16,310 nucleotides of DNA from JAYEMH01 sp034717985 [NCBI: Candidatus Ratteibacteria bacterium] (GTDB taxonomy: Bacteria; CAZDME01; JAYEMH01): the NCBI GenBank assembly GCA_034717985.1, contig JAYEMH010000014.1, forward strand, positions 1 to 16,310, read 5' to 3'. The translations under genes were made by a program, and so were the position numbers. Below the pieces are notes generated by a model, which was not told where the DNA came from, ran no database searches, and saw nothing but the letters and a program-made list of their open reading frames with translations. This document shows, piece after piece, positions 1,530 to 16,286 of the stretch. The number at the start of each line of letters is the position of its first letter. Positions within the stretch are counted from its first letter, which is position 1.

Positions 1530-1698
1530 GGGATTATTTCCGAAGCATAAAGGGGACCATAAAGGGGACGGGTTCATTTAAAATTATTCGCAGGTTATTG
1601 CTTCTTATATAACCCTGTTAATTCCGCCTTATCAAGTATGTGGCCTTGAAATTCTGAAATTCCGGGGACACCAAAATTCTGGGGACACCATACTTAAT

Positions 1699-1947
1699 TT
1701 ATTGTTGTGCTGAAGCAAGAGATAACTTTTTTGCGCGATTAAGGCCTTTAATGTAAGCCTCTCTTTTAAGAGCTTCGGATTTAGTGGAATATTTTTCTGA
1801 ATGGATTAATCTTACCGGCCAGCGACATTTAGTATAACGACAGGCTTTATCTCTGTTATGATCGTATATACGGCGTTTTAAATCTTTGGTTGTTCCAGTA
1901 TAAAGTGTTTTATCTCGGCATTGAATTATGCAAAGATACCAGGACAT
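1699..1947 (-). CDS. Small GIY-YIG endonuclease-like protein (UPF0213/YhbQ type)
   Basis: The 82 residues span a whole stand-alone GIY-YIG domain. WYLCIIQC stands for the first strand, LYTGTTKDLKRRIYDHN for the YIG part with the catalytic arginine helix, and SEALKREAYIKGLNRAKK holds the conserved glutamate. Homologues of this size are frequent in bacteria; they are presumed nucleases, and some act on DNA or branched substrates. No clear Shine-Dalgarno sequence precedes the ATG. The gene is embedded in the left copy of the direct repeat, and its twin at 6238-6484 is frameshifted. The cysteine at position 5 is tyrosine in the right copy, which is closer to the family consensus. Confidence 0.88.
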   Translation of the reverse strand: MSWYLCIIQCRDKTLYTGTTKDLKRRIYDHNRDKACRYTKCRWPVRLIHSEKYSTKSEALKREAYIKGLNRAKKLSLASAQQ

Positions 1948-2010
1948 AGATAATTATCACAGCAAGGCTCTTCGCGGAGTTTATCCTGAACGCAGTTGAA
2001 GGGCTCAGGG

Positions 2011-2042
2011 CCAAATTTTCTTTTTCAAAAAAGAAAATTTGG
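2011..2042. repeat. Inverted repeat closing the left repeat copy
   Basis: CCAAATTTTCTTTTT (2011-2025) pairs with AAAAAGAAAATTTGG (2028-2042) across a two-base gap, giving a nearly perfect 15-bp-arm palindrome. It is identical in the right copy at 6548-6579, where it follows the 3' end of tRNA-His. It could act as a terminator or mark the end of a mobile repeat. Confidence 0.8.
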
Positions 2043-2134
2043 GGTCGCTGGCTTAAACAGGTTGGAAACACCCTGCTTATTGATCCAGCGCCTTACAGTC
2101 CGTTATTTTACCAGAAAGCGTGATAAAAATATAC

Positions 2135-2905
2135 TCAAATTTCAATCAGCTGGCCGTCATTAACCGTCATCACATTCTTGCCGAAATGCTCTTTAAATTT
2201 CTCCGGCCTCTCTGTATGAATCGGAATAATGCGCTTTGGCTTAAGAGCACCCGCCAATTGCTTTAATATACGCACAGCCGCATGTCCACTGGTATGAATA
2301 TGCTCAAGCCGTAGATCATTCGCCTGAATAAAGTCCCAGAACACGCTCGCCTTCTTCTTGTCCCGGATATAGCCATCCCATTGAGAATAAATAAGAGTTG
2401 CGCCTTTAACATCCGGTATCTTCTTAACCAGAGGGATCATGGAATCGCGCATTACAACAAGAGCCTTTTCTTGGCCAATATCCCATGCCTTGATCTTATG
2501 CCTGCCGATGTCAAAAGTAAGGTACTTAAAATCTGAATTAACGATCTTATTGATATAAATATCACCCCTGCCGCGATAATTACCGATCAACACCCTGATA
2601 CTATCCCAGTCCAGCTGAGGAATCTTGTTACGCTCATTCTTTAATACATGCAGGACAGTGGCAATATATGGGTCAATAACAAGCATGGCTTTTGCGCGCC
2701 GGGCCGCCTTGTAGAATGTTACAATGCGGTCGATATTCTGGCCTGAGCAATAGGCAAGAACGACGTTCTTTTCTGTCTTTTTCAGCGCATCTTCCACACC
2801 ACTCAAAACAGCGGACTCATCCTCATAAGCTCCGCCTTGCCGCTCGATCATAGTGCCTTCCATATGCAGTTTCAAATCGTTCCCTGGGCCCATCCAACAA
2901 CGCAT
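2135..2905 (-). pseudogene. C-terminal fragment of an RNase J-like metallo-beta-lactamase protein
   Basis: The reading frame has the second half of an RNA-metabolising MBL-fold protein. Present are MEGTMIERQ followed by a glutamate-rich entry into the beta-CASP region, the late motif HTSGHA (around residue 205) and the terminal IPIHTE (around 228), which in this family supply metal ligands and RNA contacts. The N-terminal part with the HxHxDH metal-binding motif is missing. The frame opens only about 13 residues before MEGTM, and the upstream DNA reads as an unrelated helix-rich sequence in another frame. A complete relative would be well over 400 residues against 256 here. I infer a 5' truncated gene joined by deletion to a neighbouring gene. 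A catalytic role is unlikely without the first metal motif. Confidence 0.75.
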
Positions 2906-3113
2906 CCAATCGGCTTACTTTATTCCTGACGCTCCTGATCTCTTCCAATTTTTTCCATACAAGATCCCGCTTATCCACCAGTTCAGTAAGTACTCGCCTT
3001 GCCTCTTTCTCAAAAAGACGATCCTCCTCCGTAGCCGCAACTGATAACACTTGATTGAGAAAATTTATTAGTTCACCACTACCTTGGCATTTGTTGGTTG
3101 ATCGGTAAAAAAA
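2823..3113 (-). pseudogene. Frameshifted continuation of the 3068-3883 gene, helix-rich fragment
   Basis: An open frame on the minus strand continues directly past the stop of the 3068-3883 gene in another phase. It can be read without a stop from a run of seven A on the plus strand (3107-3113) through GELINFLNQVLSVAATEE and a charged, helical stretch (LFEKEARRVLTELVDKRD, RSVRNKVSRLDALLDG). At about 2885 it meets the metallo-beta-lactamase fragment in a third phase and ends after unrelated residues at 2823. The charged heptad-like pattern suggests a coiled coil. A slip in the homopolymer, as a real mutation or a sequencing error, would join it to the upstream gene. It has only a GTG at 3050 and no convincing ribosome binding site. 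Confidence 0.5.
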
Positions 3114-3883
3114 TATTTTAAGGCAGTTTTTGAAATCTTTTCGGCTTCGTTAGACTCGCTGAGTTTTTCAACTTCATATTCTAGGCCAGCTGTAAATTTC
3201 GATTTTTCTCCAATAACTAATAATGGGCGATTATAAATACCGGCTGATGTTATCTGGTTAACGGGCGGGTCGATTATTATTTGATTTGGATCAATGGACT
3301 CTTTAAAATCAACATTTATAGCGGCATCCTTAAGTTTTAACGCAATGTCCGTTAAACCATTCTCAGGCAGTTCACCATCAATTTCCATAAGGCCAATGTC
3401 ATGCAAAAATGCACGTCTCTCCTCAACCGACCTAAACATTTTCCTTAAAAATTCGTTATTTACTTTTGGCCACTCCTGTAAAGGGCTCAAATTAAGATTA
3501 TGCCCATTTACTTCATATTCAATAGATTGCAAAAATATTGGGATTGCAAAACCTCCTCTCCACCCCTTTTTTGACACAAGCCATTCTACATAAAGTGGGT
3601 ATCCATAAAAAAGTGCTCCACGTCCTCCTCGTTGTCTTAATTGCTTTAAGAAAAAAGTGCTTTCTCCTTCGAGAGATATGTTAATCTTCTTTTTTTCGAG
3701 CAGAGACCATTCCTTCTCAATTGGCATTACCAAATATTTCTTATTAACATCCGATAGGAATGTTCGAGCACCACTTGCCTCATCCTCTCGGATACAATCG
3801 AGATAATAAGCCATTAACTGCTTAAATCGCTTTAGATCAATTTGTGTTGGTTTAGATATTGAAGAGGTTTGTTTCCTTTTCAA
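3068..3883 (-). CDS. Unknown 271-residue protein, possibly the N-terminal fragment of a large helicase
   Basis: The start is TTG at 3883, chosen because TAGGAGAG lies about eight bases upstream. The protein opens with a helical segment (FKQLMAYYLDCIREDEA) and has GALFYGYPLYVEWLVSKKGW near its middle. Later comes GIYNRPLLVIGEKSKFTAGLEYEVEKL. From memory these elements resemble the region in front of the helicase core of large DNA2/Nam7-like superfamily 1 proteins. No Walker A motif is present, so the motor is absent. The frame stops 45 bases after a seven-base homopolymer, and coding-like sequence continues in another phase (2823-3113), so this is probably a broken gene. It lies 25 bases downstream of the 126-residue gene, in the same direction. 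Family assignment is tentative. Confidence 0.6.
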   Translation of the reverse strand: MKRKQTSSISKPTQIDLKRFKQLMAYYLDCIREDEASGARTFLSDVNKKYLVMPIEKEWSLLEKKKINISLEGESTFFLKQLRQRGGRGALFYGYPLYVEWLVSKKGWRGGFAIPIFLQSIEYEVNGHNLNLSPLQEWPKVNNEFLRKMFRSVEERRAFLHDIGLMEIDGELPENGLTDIALKLKDAAINVDFKESIDPNQIIIDPPVNQITSAGIYNRPLLVIGEKSKFTAGLEYEVEKLSESNEAEKISKTALKYFFTDQPTNAKVVVN

Positions 3884-3908
3884 AATATACTCTCCTAAAA
3901 TTTATGTG

Positions 3909-4289
3909 CTACGAGGGAATCGACTTGCCACAGTCTTTTACATATCTTTCCACCCGCACAAGGAAGCGGAAGAGTCTTTTTATTTTCTCGTCCTCAGAAT
4001 GAAAAATCATTATTGCCAGATTGCAGACTTTATATTCATACGATTTGCCGTTCTCCGTTTCAACTATCGCCCACTGATACTGAATCGGCGAACCGTAGTC
4101 AGGATCACCCCACGTGCCGGATAACTCCGATACCTTATCGGAACTGAACATTTGTTGAATGTTCGGAGGAATTTCATCAGCGGTCAATATGCACTCTTCA
4201 CATGAAGACTTCTTATCCATGCTGTCTAACATGCCGGATTTGAATATTATCTTGGCTATTTTGTCGGTCAATTTTTTCTTATCTATCAT
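3909..4289 (-). CDS. Hypothetical 126-residue protein
   Basis: I do not recognise this protein. It begins with a lysine-rich helix (MIDKKKLTDKIAKIIFKSGML), has a close cysteine pair CEEC near residue 30, then an acidic and glycine-rich middle (SGTWGDPDYGSP). It ends with a strand-rich part, and the last 25 residues form a basic helix (KIKRLFRFLVRVERYVKDC). No signal peptide or membrane segment is visible. It sits 31 bases after the AlbA_2 ATPase gene and 25 bases before the helicase-like fragment, all on the minus strand, so the three may share a transcript. No clear ribosome binding site precedes the ATG. Confidence 0.6.
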   Translation of the reverse strand: MIDKKKLTDKIAKIIFKSGMLDSMDKKSSCEECILTADEIPPNIQQMFSSDKVSELSGTWGDPDYGSPIQYQWAIVETENGKSYEYKVCNLAIMIFHSEDEKIKRLFRFLVRVERYVKDCGKSIPS

Positions 4290-4320
4290 TTTTCAATTTA
4301 TGACGCACTGCGTTGAAATT

Positions 4321-5694
4321 TTACTCCCTTTTTATTATCTCCCAACGCCCACCCTTATCCGGGCCGATGCGTTTAAGCAACCCTCTCTCCTGCAAAACCT
4401 TTAAATTATATTTGATGCCGGATTCAGTAATACCCTTTATATTTATTGCTATTTCTTCTCTCGTGGCCTGCGGATGTTCTTTTAGATAAGTAAGAATGGC
4501 CTGCTGTTTCTGGGTAGTTTTCTGGGTAGTTTTCTGGGTAGTTTTCTCCTCAGTTTCTGCGCCCTTTACACCCTTAACCGGTTTTTCTTTCGGCCGGTAA
4601 AACGTCACCACAAATCCTGTCTTGATGTTCTGGAATGTCACCCGTATACCCGCGGCTTTGCATTCATCGACAATACGCTTAAAACCCGAGCCCCAGCGTT
4701 CGATGTCTTTGGCGTAATAGAACGTATCGGCAATCAAGGGGTTGCGGGGAATGCTTTTCTCTTTGCCTTTGATAAATTCCTCCGGTGAGTGGTCATACGG
4801 AAACTGCCCCGGATTATATATCTCAATTCTGTTACGATAAATCGCCATCTCATTTCCGGAGGGATTGTTGAAATCACGATGGCAAAGGGAATTAACGATC
4901 GCCTCACGAACAGCCTCAACCGGAACCTCCGGCGTCTCAATACGCTTGAAGTCAACAATCTTGGCGCGCCAGTTGATGTGCTCTTTAACATAGGTTTCAC
5001 ATTGGGAAATCAGGTCAAAAAGCGTTCCCTTAAAAAACTGGATATCCAAAAAAGTCGTCTTCTCATCCGTGGCAAAAACGGCCGAGCGAACTTCAACACG
5101 ATTGTCTTTGCAAAAAAGCGCTCTGCCTGCGTTAAGCAGTTTCTTGCCCTTGATCAGGTGAAGCTTGTTGAGGACATTGCGCGCTGAATCATAAGCGTAT
5201 TCAATACGCCCTGCTTTGCGACCTTTTTCAATGAATCCTTTAATCGTAGCAATGTCGGCTTTGGAAAGGGAGAATTCGGAAACCTCGAAGCCCCACGCAT
5301 AAATATAGTTGTTCTTTTTCTCAACCAGACGCTTAAGCTCATTCACCGAGAGTTTTTTGTTTTCCTCTCCTATCCGTAAATAATAACGCCCGCGAGCTGA
5401 ATACACACTGTCCTGACCGCTGACTTTAACGATAATGCAATCCCTGCCTTTTATCTTTTTAATCTGGATCTCAGGATAGACCTTGGGCTCGATCCAATCA
5501 CTAATGGCTTTTGAAATATCTTTCAGGGTCGACTTGCCAATCTGCTGTCCCAAAACCCTGCCATCATCATTTATCCCAAAACAGACCATATCCTTACTGC
5601 GCTTGTTTAGCATGGCTCCTAACGAGATGATTGCCTCTTTGAGTTCCGATGTAGATCTTTTGAGTTCTACGGTTTCGCTTTCTGTTAATTTCAT
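4321..5694 (-). CDS. Schlafen/AlbA_2 domain ATP-binding protein with C-terminal winged helix
   Basis: The 457-residue protein begins with an AlbA_2 (Schlafen AAA_4) domain, about residues 1-125, with ESETVELKRS and a CFGINDDGRVLGQQIG glycine motif. A GHKL-type ATPase domain (HATPase_c_4), about 255-365, shows an N box (AVREAIVNSLCHRDF) and a G box (ERWGSGFKRIV). A winged helix follows at about 399-457 (QQAILTYLKEHPQATREEIA). This is the common RecG-like/AlbA_2 transcriptional regulator architecture, presumed to bind DNA in an ATP-dependent way. I chose the ATG at 5694 over the in-frame ATG at 5718 because AAGGAAG lies just upstream of it and the AlbA_2 domain starts there. A linker TTQKTTQKTTQK is encoded by a perfect 12-bp triplication. 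Neighbours suggest an accessory, possibly defence-related, module. Confidence 0.88.
   Translation of the reverse strand: MKLTESETVELKRSTSELKEAIISLGAMLNKRSKDMVCFGINDDGRVLGQQIGKSTLKDISKAISDWIEPKVYPEIQIKKIKGRDCIIVKVSGQDSVYSARGRYYLRIGEENKKLSVNELKRLVEKKNNYIYAWGFEVSEFSLSKADIATIKGFIEKGRKAGRIEYAYDSARNVLNKLHLIKGKKLLNAGRALFCKDNRVEVRSAVFATDEKTTFLDIQFFKGTLFDLISQCETYVKEHINWRAKIVDFKRIETPEVPVEAVREAIVNSLCHRDFNNPSGNEMAIYRNRIEIYNPGQFPYDHSPEEFIKGKEKSIPRNPLIADTFYYAKDIERWGSGFKRIVDECKAAGIRVTFQNIKTGFVVTFYRPKEKPVKGVKGAETEEKTTQKTTQKTTQKQQAILTYLKEHPQATREEIAINIKGITESGIKYNLKVLQERGLLKRIGPDKGGRWEIIKRE
4510..4545. repeat. In-frame 12-bp tandem repeat, three copies
   Basis: CTGGGTAGTTTT occurs three times in a row without a mismatch. 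In the AlbA_2 gene it encodes TTQK three times in the linker before the winged helix. Its unit is a multiple of three, so copy-number change would lengthen or shorten the linker without breaking the frame. Confidence 0.9.
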
Positions 5695-5743
5695 ATGTCT
5701 TCCTTTTTTATGTTTCATATCTTTAGCCCCCTACAAGGTATTT

Positions 5744-5762
5744 CTGGCACAAGCTGTGCCAG
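5744..5762. promoter_or_regulatory. Perfect palindrome in the AlbA_2 upstream region
   Basis: CTGGCACAAGCTGTGCCAG is an inverted repeat with 8-bp arms around AGC. It lies about 50 bases upstream of the ATG at 5694, between the divergent genes at 5694 and 5885. It could be an operator bound by the winged helix of the adjacent protein, or a transcript hairpin. Confidence 0.5.
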
Positions 5763-5766
5763 TTTT

Positions 5767-5792
5767 GCATCATCTCCGAGCATCATCTCCGA
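5767..5792. repeat. 13-bp tandem duplication in the divergent intergenic region
   Basis: GCATCATCTCCGA occurs twice back to back (5767-5779 and 5780-5792), directly beside the palindrome at 5744-5762. Confidence 0.8.
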
Positions 5793-5801
5793 GCAATCTT
5801 G

Positions 5802-5830
5802 TTTACAAAAAGGGTATAAAATATTATAAT
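5802..5830 (+). promoter_or_regulatory. Promoter of the 74-residue gene
   Basis: TTTACA (5802-5807) is followed after exactly 17 bases by TATAAT (5825-5830) on the plus strand, a near-consensus sigma-70 promoter. The gene begins 54 bases downstream of the -10 box. Confidence 0.65.
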
Positions 5831-5884
5831 ATAAAAGATTATTGATTACCACATAAAATTCCGACAGAAGGAACATTAACCAAA

Positions 5885-6109
5885 ATGGAGCATTCAGATA
5901 ATTTCAAACTGGTTATTGAGGCAATACAGGCCGAATGGAGCAAGGACTCTTCAGCCGGTCTTATCGAGCTTCGACAGACTAAAGAAAATAAATTAAACAC
6001 CGTTCCGATCAATCATATCATAAATATCCTGCGCGATTTGGAGGCCGGGGCCGGAGTGCTTAAAGTCACAAAAGAAAACTACCCTGATAAAAAAGAAGAG
6101 CCGTCATAA
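5885..6109 (+). CDS. Hypothetical 74-residue protein
   Basis: This small plus-strand gene has a good promoter and a GAAGGAAC motif about ten bases before its ATG. The product is soluble and charged, with a predicted helix at the start (NFKLVIEAIQAEW) and another near the centre (INHIINILRDLEAGAGVL). It ends in a lysine- and glutamate-rich tail. I do not recognise it. The stop lies four bases before the right copy of the direct repeat, so the native 3' end may have been replaced when the repeat arrived. It is the only gene between the repeats on the plus strand. Confidence 0.6.
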   Translation: MEHSDNFKLVIEAIQAEWSKDSSAGLIELRQTKENKLNTVPINHIINILRDLEAGAGVLKVTKENYPDKKEEPS

Positions 6110-6237
6110 AGGTCATAAAGGGGACGGGTTCATTTAAAATTATTCGCAGGTTATTGCTTCTTATACAACCCTATTAATTCCGCCTTATCAAGTATGTGGC
6201 CTTGAAATTCTGAAATTCTGGGGACACCATACTTAAT

Positions 6238-6484
6238 TTATTGTTGTGCTGAAGCAAGAGATAACTTTTTTGCGCGATTAAGGCCTTTAATGTAAGCCTC
6301 TCTTTTAAGAGCTTCGGATTTAGTGAAATGTTTTTCTGAATGGATTAATCTTACCGGCCCGACATTTAGTATAACGACAGGCTTTATCTCTGTTATGATC
6401 GTATATACGGCGTTTTAAATCTTTGGTTGTTCCAGTATAAAGTGTTTTATCTCGGCATTGAATTATGTAAAGATACCAGGACAT
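6238..6484 (-). pseudogene. Frameshifted copy of the GIY-YIG nuclease gene
   Basis: The copy spans the same start (CAT at 6482-6484) and stop (TTA at 6238-6240) as the intact gene at 1699-1947 but is two bases shorter. CCGGCCAGCGAC in the left copy is CCGGCCCGAC here (near 6354-6363). The loss shifts the frame in the centre of the domain, so the C-terminal half with the conserved glutamate is lost. Before the shift the residue at position 5 is the family-typical tyrosine. Confidence 0.85.
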
Positions 6485-6547
6485 AGATAATTATCACAGC
6501 AAGGCTCTTCGCGGAGTTTATCCTGAACGCAGTTGAAGGGCTCAGGG

Positions 6548-6579
6548 CCAAATTTTCTTTTTCAAAAAAGAAAATTTGG
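6548..6579 (-). terminator. Inverted repeat directly downstream of tRNA-His
   Basis: CCAAATTTTCTTTTT pairs with AAAAAGAAAATTTGG, separated by two bases, starting immediately after the tRNA-His discriminator base. It is well placed to end the tRNA operon transcript, but no U-run follows on the minus strand. The same sequence ends the left repeat copy, so it may instead belong to the repeat. Confidence 0.5.
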
Positions 6580-6651
6580 GGTGGCTAACGGGATTTGAAC
6601 CCGTACAAAGAGAACCACAATCTCTTGTGCTGCCATTACACCATAGCCACC
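6580..6651 (-). tRNA. tRNA-His (GUG)
   Basis: Read on the minus strand, the sequence folds as a tRNA. The acceptor stem GTGGCTA pairs with TAGCCAC, the anticodon loop TTGTGGT gives GTG, and the T arm is ACGGG-TTCAAAT-CCCGT. The extra G at position -1 opposite C73, unique to tRNA-His, is present. CCA is not encoded. It is the last gene of a three-tRNA operon. Confidence 0.96.
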
Positions 6652-6772: not shown

Positions 6773-6849
6773 TGGTACGCCCGGAGTGATTCGAACACTC
6801 GACCCTCTGCTTAGAAGGCAGATGCTCTATCCAACTGAGCTACGGGCGC
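6773..6849 (-). tRNA. tRNA-Arg (UCU)
   Basis: The minus strand shows acceptor GCGCCCG pairing with CGGGCGT (one G-U pair), the D arm TAGCTCAGTTGGATAGAG, an anticodon stem CTGCC/GGCAG-like helix with TCT in the loop, the T loop GTTCGAATC, discriminator A and an encoded CCA. Confidence 0.96.
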
Positions 6850-6852
6850 ACA

Positions 6853-6930
6853 TGGTCGGGGTGAGAGGATTTGAACCTCCGACTTCCTGCTCCCAAAGCA
6901 GGCGCGCTAGCCGGGCTGCGCCACACCCCG
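6853..6930 (-). tRNA. tRNA-Pro (UGG)
   Basis: The minus strand shows acceptor CGGGGTG pairing with CACCCCG, the anticodon stem CCTGC/GCAGG with loop TTTGGGA giving TGG, the T loop GTTCAAATC, and an encoded CCA. It is the first tRNA of the operon, three bases upstream of tRNA-Arg. Confidence 0.96.
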
Positions 6931-13574: not shown

Positions 13575-13762
13575 TGAAAAAGTAGGAAGTTATAAATTTA
13601 AAATCACCAATAACCAAGATACAAACAAACACCAATATTCAATAACCAGTTATCACACCTATAGTTTATTACTGATTTTATTACATTTTTGGTTATTTGA
13701 ATTTGGTTATTGGTTATTATTTGGTTATTGTATCGTGTTTCTTGGTTATTATCTATTTCCTG
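13575..13762. repeat. Repeat-rich, imperfectly palindromic spacer between coaC and coaB
   Basis: TTGGTTATT occurs several times in the right part (about 13689-13749) and its complement AATAACCA at least twice in the left part (about 13601-13640). The spacer can therefore fold back on itself. Flanks AAAAAGTAGGAAGTTATA and the complement of TATCTATTTCCTGCTGCTTTTT are also related. It has no coding character. It may be an inserted palindromic element. Confidence 0.7.
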
Positions 13763-16170: not shown

Positions 16171-16200
16171 GCTCGACTAGGCGAAATGTTATTTAAAAAT

Positions 16201-16245
16201 TAAAAGTGCACAGTTTTAGAGCGATTTAAGTTTTAAAAGTGCACA
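16201..16245. repeat. Duplicated 12-mer TAAAAGTGCACA
   Basis: TAAAAGTGCACA occurs at 16201-16212 and 16234-16245 in the same orientation, 33 bases apart, and each copy contains the palindrome GTGCAC. The pair lies just upstream of the plus-strand gene at 16287. It could be transposase binding sites at an insertion-sequence end or operators of that gene. A TATAAT follows at 16258-16263 without a clear -35 box. Confidence 0.6.
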
Positions 16246-16286
16246 CCTTATCTGCGCTATAATGGAACCCAAAAGGAGGTTTGATT

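Follow-up and report, generated by a model that had tools for sequence, protein, structure and literature searches.

Introduction

Transfer RNA (tRNA) genes are landing sites of recombinase-borne genomic islands, which integrate at tRNA 3' ends by site-specific recombinases, and in phages they adjoin homing nucleases. Small GIY-YIG proteins of the UPF0213 type, which we take to be COG2827, are stand-alone proteins whose role is unclear. The Ssn proteins of Neisseria are reportedly GIY-YIG nucleases specific for single strands, with cognate repeats in the genome; to our knowledge, an association with tRNA genes is no part of that system. Repetitive extragenic palindromic (REP) elements are linked to RAYT transposases. 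The closest worked-out precedent for the locus described here is SegB of the T-even phages. SegB is a free-standing GIY-YIG homing endonuclease that cleaves in tRNA genes and drives tandem duplication of tRNA and segB through recombination, and SegB homologues lie near tRNAs of many isotypes (PMC13096335). Here we analyse a 16,310-nt stretch of contig JAYEMH010000014.1 (the window), in which two direct repeats, each with a small GIY-YIG gene, lie ~4.5 kb apart and one of them is joined to a tRNA-His gene.

We read the window repeat, with moderate confidence, as a minimal GIY-YIG element of homing-like character that is tied to tRNA genes, located at tRNA-His and accompanied by an ectopic second copy. 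In the open-licence literature searched, which yielded mainly mitochondrial papers, an analysis of the GIY-YIG superfamily (PMC1564403) and SegB, no description of a minimal chromosomal element of GIY-YIG gene and tRNA was found. Genomes and loci used for comparison are designated by G and L numbers, respectively.

Results

Two copies of a GIY-YIG repeat, one at tRNA-His

The left copy (1558..2045, minus strand, 488 nt) and the right copy (6114..6582, minus strand, 469 nt) stand in direct orientation and align over 488 columns. They differ by 5 substitutions and by two gaps, of 2 nt and 17 nt, that are both in the right copy. Likeness by chance is excluded. The flanking DNA of the two copies is different on both sides and, together with the differences in sequence, this argues against a plain assembly duplication. 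An earlier note on this DNA had described two repeats of ~480 bp in the same orientation, the right one running into the 3' end of tRNA-His, and had named alignment of the copies as a check; the alignment bears out the description, with exact coordinates.

Read on the minus strand, each copy begins with the tip ACCCCA and continues with a hairpin (H1), a CTGAG..CGAAG region (H2), the GIY-YIG gene, GGTGTCCCC tags (two in the left copy, one in the right), the 3' end of a gene of presumed YbhB/PEBP type and a GTCCCC tag. The tip of the right copy is the genuine 3' end of tRNA-His (GTG; 6577..6650, minus strand): the encoded CCA (6577-6579), the discriminator and the next two bases all lie within the shared end TGGGGT. 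The left copy is ectopic and adjoins no tRNA; its minus-strand 5' flank and edge read AGCCAGCGACCCCA. Next to tRNA-His the window holds tRNA-Arg (TCT; 6773..6849) and tRNA-Pro (TGG; 6853..6930), both on the minus strand; all three are supported by tRNA call and Rfam. On the plus strand, the REP-like tags of the left copy appear as two GGGGACACC at 1664..1689, and a single tag is found at 6220-6228 in the right copy. The PEBP part (1595..1648, minus strand, ending ..LDKAELTGLYKKQ stop; the same stretch at 6151..6204, minus strand, in the right copy) corresponds to the 3' end of a gene whose frame is complete in L030, L034, L040 and L042.

Used as a DNA query against 384 Omnitrophota genomes, the window repeat matched in 57 genomes (E 1e-3). 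Its GIY-YIG part, CTGAG..TCGAAG part, tag part and PEBP part match other genomes separately, and judged by these matches the repeat is a mosaic. We rejected on the same grounds a single cassette with clean ends on both sides. Cargo as a fixed component of the repeated unit was also rejected, because the units of G337 stop at the GIY-YIG gene. We found no relative close to the window: its rph gave a best-scoring match of 70% (DNA) and shorter matches of up to 72%, and the AsmA protein as a marker gave nothing above 34% identity among the matches listed. A scan of genome contigs yielded 3 distant loci; the nearest relatives found are metagenome-assembled genomes (MAGs). Exact H1 had 0 matches in viral contigs.

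The left GIY-YIG gene (1699..1947, minus strand) encodes a protein of 82 aa of the UPF0213 type. Its sole Pfam domain is PF01541 (4.4e-17; 62.6 bits against a cut-off of 22.6; residues 3-74 of 82), it matches the PDB entries 1zg2 (E 7.6e-14) and 1ywl, and PHROGs gave no match at E 0.01. In the right copy the gene lies behind tRNA-His and outside any intron or intein, which is the placement of a free-standing homing endonuclease; Rfam revealed no intron family in the window up to E 0.5. The tyrosine of the GIY motif, present in 100 of 100 aligned homologues, is replaced by cysteine at residue 6 of the left copy, which keeps Y16, G18, R26, H30 and E63. The right gene (6238..6484, minus strand, ends placed by the offset of the repeat) keeps the GIY tyrosine and is frameshifted by a 2-nt deletion, so that it stops after 54 residues. 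The window gene is a member of the family by descent, not a canonical active copy, and a normal enzyme is not expected from either copy. An ordinary active nuclease in the left copy was rejected because of the exchange of the invariant tyrosine. The earlier note had called the left nuclease intact and the right one shortened by two bases; the deletion is there, and "intact" is true of the left reading frame only.

GIY-YIG genes behind tRNA genes in related genomes

The Omnitrophota sample comprised 103 GIY-YIG genes in 95 loci, chosen by GIY-YIG score or repeat similarity, with some added by AsmA synteny or nearness; 5 of these genes had less than 300 nt upstream in their locus. The 3' end of a same-strand tRNA lies within 300 nt upstream of 32 of the 103 genes, and an opposite-strand tRNA lies there once. 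Thirteen tRNA species are represented: His, Gln-CTG and Lys six times each, Gln-TTG three times, Thr and Val twice each, and a further seven by one gene apiece. If tRNAs on both sides of the gene are considered, the number with a same-strand tRNA at 300 nt or less is 41 of 103. Among control open reading frames (ORFs) of at least 70 aa from 20 arbitrary 20-kb stretches, 7 of 345 had such an upstream tRNA (Fisher p 2e-16). The E-ranked part of the sample alone (85 genes in 80 loci, 80 stretches from among the matches listed) gave 27 of 85.

In a class of Patescibacteria, a same-strand tRNA or transfer-messenger RNA (tmRNA) lies within 300 nt upstream of 14 of 29 placed genes and one on the opposite strand in 2 (29 of 30 loci placed, L222 with a negative score; L228 was dropped). 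The GIY-YIG gene of L210, from this class, stands ~200 nt behind a same-strand tmRNA; the tRNA habit may therefore extend to tmRNA. Over 40 tRNA-adjacent rows the tRNA isotype follows the GIY-YIG tree, with 16 changes against a shuffled mean of 25.3 (0/300 shuffles as low), and this agreement fits inherited specificity or descent.

The two-hairpin leader

Two hairpins lie between the tRNA end and the start codon in most tRNA-adjacent loci. H1 is found at 2011..2042 in the left window copy (CCAAATTTTCTTTTT / AAAAAGAAAATTTGG) and at 6548..6579 in the right copy, where its 5' arm starts with the CCA of tRNA-His; the H2 regions, with limits set by eye, extend over 1966..2012 (CCCTGAG....CGAAGAGCC) and 6503..6549. 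All four are on the minus strand. H1 often opens with CCA paired to TGG. This holds for tRNA-His in the window, G251, G185, G242 and G143, and also for Lys (L092, L116) and Gln (L095), and the arm sequences vary between genomes. The duplicated unit of G187 has two H1 hairpins that differ on both arms with the pairing kept. A typical H2 consists of a stem, a 2x2 G-A internal loop and an inner stem, often with a GAA loop. Of 37 leaders, 33 had z < -2 (median -4.0), compared with 25 of 70 stretches upstream of genes without a near tRNA (median -0.95) and 5 of 68 random 100-mers. The stability of H1 may come partly from a role as tRNA terminator, for example in L092, where a run of T is present.

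Assignment of the leader to an Rfam family was rejected, since only the three tRNAs of the window reached gathering scores. In the open-licence literature searched, strings of the CTGAG..TCGAA type were not found. Behind tRNA-Lys, L132 (G126) carries H1-H2 units in exact tandem; every unit closes with GGGACCA, similar to the CCA end of a tRNA. In L028 and L029 (G019, G159), a CTGAG..TCGAAG repeat situated ~200 nt away from the complete tRNA has ~20 nt of a tRNA 3' end fused to it; no GIY-YIG gene was seen by eye in the stretch printed, and this is possibly a remnant or a non-autonomous form.

tRNA fragments and duplicated units

A fragment of the tRNA was found on the far side of the gene in 9 of 68 GIY-adjacent tests and in 2 of 102 controls (E 1e-3; p 0.0075). 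Regions below 300 nt were skipped, which left 68 of 71 tests, and matches of 11-12 nt, being near chance, were not counted. Both control matches flank nuclease genes. In L190, positions 1-38 of tRNA-Glu are followed by a GIY-YIG gene and the complete tRNA-Glu. In L241 (G039), upstream of tRNA-His, positions 1-27 of tRNA-His precede an HNH-like ORF (HNH_3, 24.6 bits, slightly below the cut-off of 24.8) and the complete tRNA-His. HNH genes may use tRNA genes likewise. A look-alike of this ORF is located between a GIY-YIG gene and tRNA-His in L161.

At L099 the order is tRNA-Thr, H1, H2, GIY-YIG gene, then 17 nt of tRNA-Thr, an identical H1 and a second H2. Here and in L108 and L147, tRNA fragments enclose a lone GIY-YIG gene at ~0.4 kb. 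Other genomes have direct repeats resembling those of the window. G187 (L173) contains a direct repeat of ~450 bp (86%) that begins ~26 nt inside tRNA-Lys. G337 (L170) has two non-tRNA units of 334 bp (96%) with the edge GC[G/T]ACCCCA, ending at the GIY-YIG gene. A non-tRNA copy in G163 (L084/L175) agrees with the window in its two hairpins and its ACCCCA boundary, as do both G337 units. In G325 a direct repeat of 467 bp (98%) stands at the two ends of a contig and is thus possibly an assembly effect.

tRNA-His loci with and without the gene

tRNA-His was found by its 3'-end pattern in 47 of 175 genomes. We read 29 unselected tRNA-His loci (30 of 49 matches, minus L257, where no tRNA-His was called), 27 of them with at least 400 nt downstream. 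A GIY-YIG gene lies within 300 nt downstream in one of the 29 and at 1.3 kb in one; GIY-YIG matches upstream of tRNA-His were seen in two. Behind tRNA-His in 11 of the 29 loci, the opposite strand encodes all or part of a large serine recombinase; this number is a lower bound, as it counts only the longest frame behind each tRNA-His. The distance to tRNA-His is at most 1 nt in nine of them (L231, L232, L241, L242, L243, L246, L248, L249, L252) and larger in L230 and L254; G320 (L073) also has such a gene. tRNA-His is therefore an integration site for recombinase-borne islands in this phylum. ORFs behind tRNA-His units elsewhere were, by eye, HTH, LexA-like, RadC-like, DNA-methylase-like and nucleotidyltransferase/HEPN-like. 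A tblastn search of the window with three recombinases from tRNA-His loci gave nothing better than E 1.

Nine genomes have tRNA-His at no more than 3.3 kb from rph, a placement close to that in the window. Eight could be judged; a GIY-YIG gene is present in none, a recombinase in three (G054, G072, G105), an apparent remnant in one (G066) and neither in four. In L245 (G066) a tRNA-His fragment is fused to an apparent GIY-YIG C-terminus, followed by an HNH-like frame (by eye), possibly the remnant of a lost unit. Several distant genomes show tRNA-Pro/Arg/His followed by a GIY-YIG gene. G123 and G148 come nearest to a pair with and without the element. Behind tRNA-His the two share 1325 nt (93.5%), made up of a RadC-like gene and the stretch upstream of it. 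From the tRNA to this shared stretch there are 552 nt in G123, which has H1, H2 and the GIY-YIG gene, and 143 nt in G148, which lacks them. The shared stretch may itself be mobile, because the tRNA-His ends match only 83% over 24 nt.

An ancestral GIY-YIG gene at tRNA-His was rejected in view of its presence in only one of the 29 unselected loci, and so was the idea that the other tRNA-His sites are empty, given the 11 recombinases. The earlier note had proposed a search for an empty tRNA-His site in relatives: sites lacking the GIY-YIG gene are common, and they are not simply empty.

The enclosed segment and other features of the window

Between the two copies lie, on the minus strand, a C-terminal RNase-J-like fragment with an RMMBL domain (2135..2905; PF07521 8.2e-07; TIGR00649 2.8e-05, far below cut-off), an overlapping 75-aa fragment (2823..3050) and a 271-aa ORF (3068..3883), both without confident family, a 126-aa ORF without family (3909..4289) and an ORF with AlbA_2 and HATPase_c_4 domains (4321..5718; PF04326 1.7e-15, PF13749 4.6e-18, phrog_12156 2.1e-59; weak C-terminal HTH match). 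On the plus strand follows a 74-aa ORF without family (5885..6109). These agree with the five genes or gene fragments described earlier. The GC content of the segment is 0.420, similar to the flanks. Adjoining the left copy is an AAA_14/DUF4143 ORF (276-1493) that matches the PADLOC candidate defence family PDC-S01 (5.4e-106). No integrase, recombinase or transposase family was matched by the nine window ORFs searched (Pfam; eight of them in further libraries). Excision or re-formation of the 4-kb segment by recombination between the copies, which the earlier note suggested, is hypothetical.

Two further repeats lie elsewhere in the window. A dispersed palindromic repeat rich in AT, with AATAACCAA units, occupies 13602-13758 and recurs with 81-83% likeness at two places in G223 and in G137; it sits between two ORFs that resemble halves of coaBC by eye, so this gene may be split. 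At 16191-16256 two tandem 33-nt units are 73% alike.

Discussion

Genes of this family are associated with tRNA genes, their leaders are structured, tRNA fragments flank some of them, duplications have arisen repeatedly, and tRNA-His occurs with and without the gene. From these observations and by analogy we infer cutting, its target and recombination as the copying step. The proposed unit would consist of the 3' tip of a tRNA (at least CCA), H1, H2 and a UPF0213-type GIY-YIG gene of ~82 residues, and the window element would have acquired REP-like tags and the tail of a PEBP gene in addition. The nuclease would cut or nick within a tRNA gene or next to it, with the hairpins in single-stranded form as a possible target; alternatively, by analogy with the Ssn nucleases mentioned above, single-strand cutting at H1/H2 might be the first step. 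Repair from a copy bearing the element would then bring the gene and a piece of tRNA to the break. The result could be a complete tRNA with a tRNA fragment, repeated units, or other DNA caught between two copies. The window may hold such a pair, since decayed: one copy at tRNA-His, another 4.5 kb away that keeps no more of the tRNA end than ACCCCA, and accessory DNA in between. As both copies look enzymatically decayed, the event would be past, not ongoing. The copy-paste step suggested in the earlier note gains support from the non-tRNA copies with ACCCCA edge in G163 and G337 and from the tRNA-Lys repeat of G187, and it is unproven.

Several points weigh against a tRNA-tied homing-like element. 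In the window, the repeat extends past the GIY-YIG gene into REP-like tags and PEBP tail, so that, for the window by itself, a plain segmental duplication is just as good an explanation. The H2 of the window is longer than the compact H2 elsewhere, and RNAfold gives no stem/GA loop/stem shape for it. Only ~6 nt of tRNA (the tip ACCCCA) are repeated, and BLAST found no further tRNA-His fragment in the window beyond chance. Among the relatives, 71 of the 103 genes are without a same-strand tRNA within 300 nt upstream, and the state with or without tRNA is not clustered on the tree (32 changes against 31.7 when shuffled); the tree is weak, being built on 88 columns and leaving 53 of its 98 inner branches open. 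The control drew on all ORFs rather than on accessory genes. Islands use tRNA-His in general, so that tRNA-side islands may account for some of the tRNA association. Finally, tRNA fragments reached E 1e-3 in only nine of 68 tests, and their junctions vary, lying at tRNA positions 51-64 on the 3' side and 13-38 on the 5' side.

An ordinary segmental duplication beside tRNA-His, arising by recombination or replication slippage at REP-like sequences with the nuclease gene as a passenger, would explain why the repeat is longer than the minimal unit and carries PEBP tail and REP-like tags; the 5 substitutions in 488 columns and the lack of a recombinase among the tested ORFs also suit it. It does not account for units with the identical 5' edge ACCCCA and no tRNA, once in G163 and twice in G337, nor for the enrichment of GIY-YIG genes at tRNAs in two bacterial groups, and we regard it as unlikely, if still to be taken seriously. 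Somewhat more doubtful is an integrative island, or its remnant, at tRNA-His, with GIY-YIG genes as passengers at the island ends and a recombinase since lost. Islands do use this site in the phylum, as seen from the serine recombinase directly behind tRNA-His in 11 of 29 loci, and the window offers direct repeats, one of them at a complete tRNA, accessory genes between them and the PDC-S01 gene next door. The island proposed in the earlier note is thus favoured for tRNA-His in general; in the window itself no recombinase was seen among the ORFs tested, and none of the three recombinase queries matched better than E 1. Moreover, the repeat of 488 nt contains a whole gene and shares ~6 nt with the tRNA, the GC content of the segment is like that of the flanks, and elsewhere tRNA fragments enclose a single GIY-YIG gene at ~0.4 kb.

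The GGGGACACC / GTCCCC tags on one side of the gene and the dispersed CTGAG..TCGAAG palindromes on the other would suit a REP-type sequence mobilised in trans by a transposase of the IS200-like (RAYT) kind, with the GIY-YIG gene as cargo enclosed by GTCCCC tags. The G337 units, however, stop close to the end of the GIY-YIG gene, their aligned stretch shows no such tags, and the feature that recurs is the edge at ACCCCA or at the tRNA end, which makes this explanation quite improbable. A single locus assembled twice is hardly credible: the metagenome-like origin, indicated by MAGs as nearest relatives, and the G325 repeat at contig ends would allow it, but the copies differ by five substitutions and two indels and have different flanks on both sides.

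More tentatively, and with less confidence than we place in the homing-like reading of the window, sub-kilobase selfish elements with one free-standing nuclease gene (GIY-YIG, sometimes HNH) could have a standing habitat in the tRNA genes of Omnitrophota, of Patescibacteria and perhaps of many bacteria. Such elements would have a CCA-based two-hairpin leader, carry a piece of tRNA that restores a complete tRNA on insertion and form subfamilies that keep their isotype. Pairs of copies would capture accessory and defence genes between them, and in this way tRNA-side islands could expand both alongside recombinase-borne ones and in their absence. If this is true, a minimal nuclease element on chromosomal tRNA genes would join two themes, recombinase islands and phage homing nucleases. 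It would also provide a second route for the growth of tRNA-side islands and a testable role for UPF0213 GIY-YIG proteins and for the dispersed CTGAG..TCGAAG palindromes.

Comparison with known systems

With the UPF0213 proteins of known structure (PDB 1zg2, 1ywl) the window gene shares sequence family, length and most conserved residues; its placement at tRNA genes is the new part. The Ssn systems resemble it in having a small GIY-YIG gene with palindromic repeats alongside and dispersed. Dispersed palindromes are likewise common to REP elements with their RAYT transposases, from which the window differs in that no transposase family was matched among the nine ORFs searched. As in tRNA-integrated islands, a complete tRNA stands on one side and a tRNA 3' fragment on the other in L099, L108 and L147, and tRNA-His of the phylum is such a site. 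In contrast to these islands, no recombinase was found in the window, the junctions are variable, and the units measure ~0.4 kb with one nuclease gene.

As with SegB, a GIY-YIG gene adjoins tRNA genes of many isotypes. The SegB protein is larger than 82 aa. Unlike phage-borne SegB, the present gene is on a bacterial chromosome, its predicted product of 82 aa contains only PF01541, and it is associated with a two-hairpin leader and, at some insertions, with tRNA fragments. To judge from sequence, the GIY-YIG element would belong to the type of free-standing GIY-YIG homing nucleases beside tRNA genes, here in a minimal and chromosomal form with a tRNA-anchored hairpin leader.

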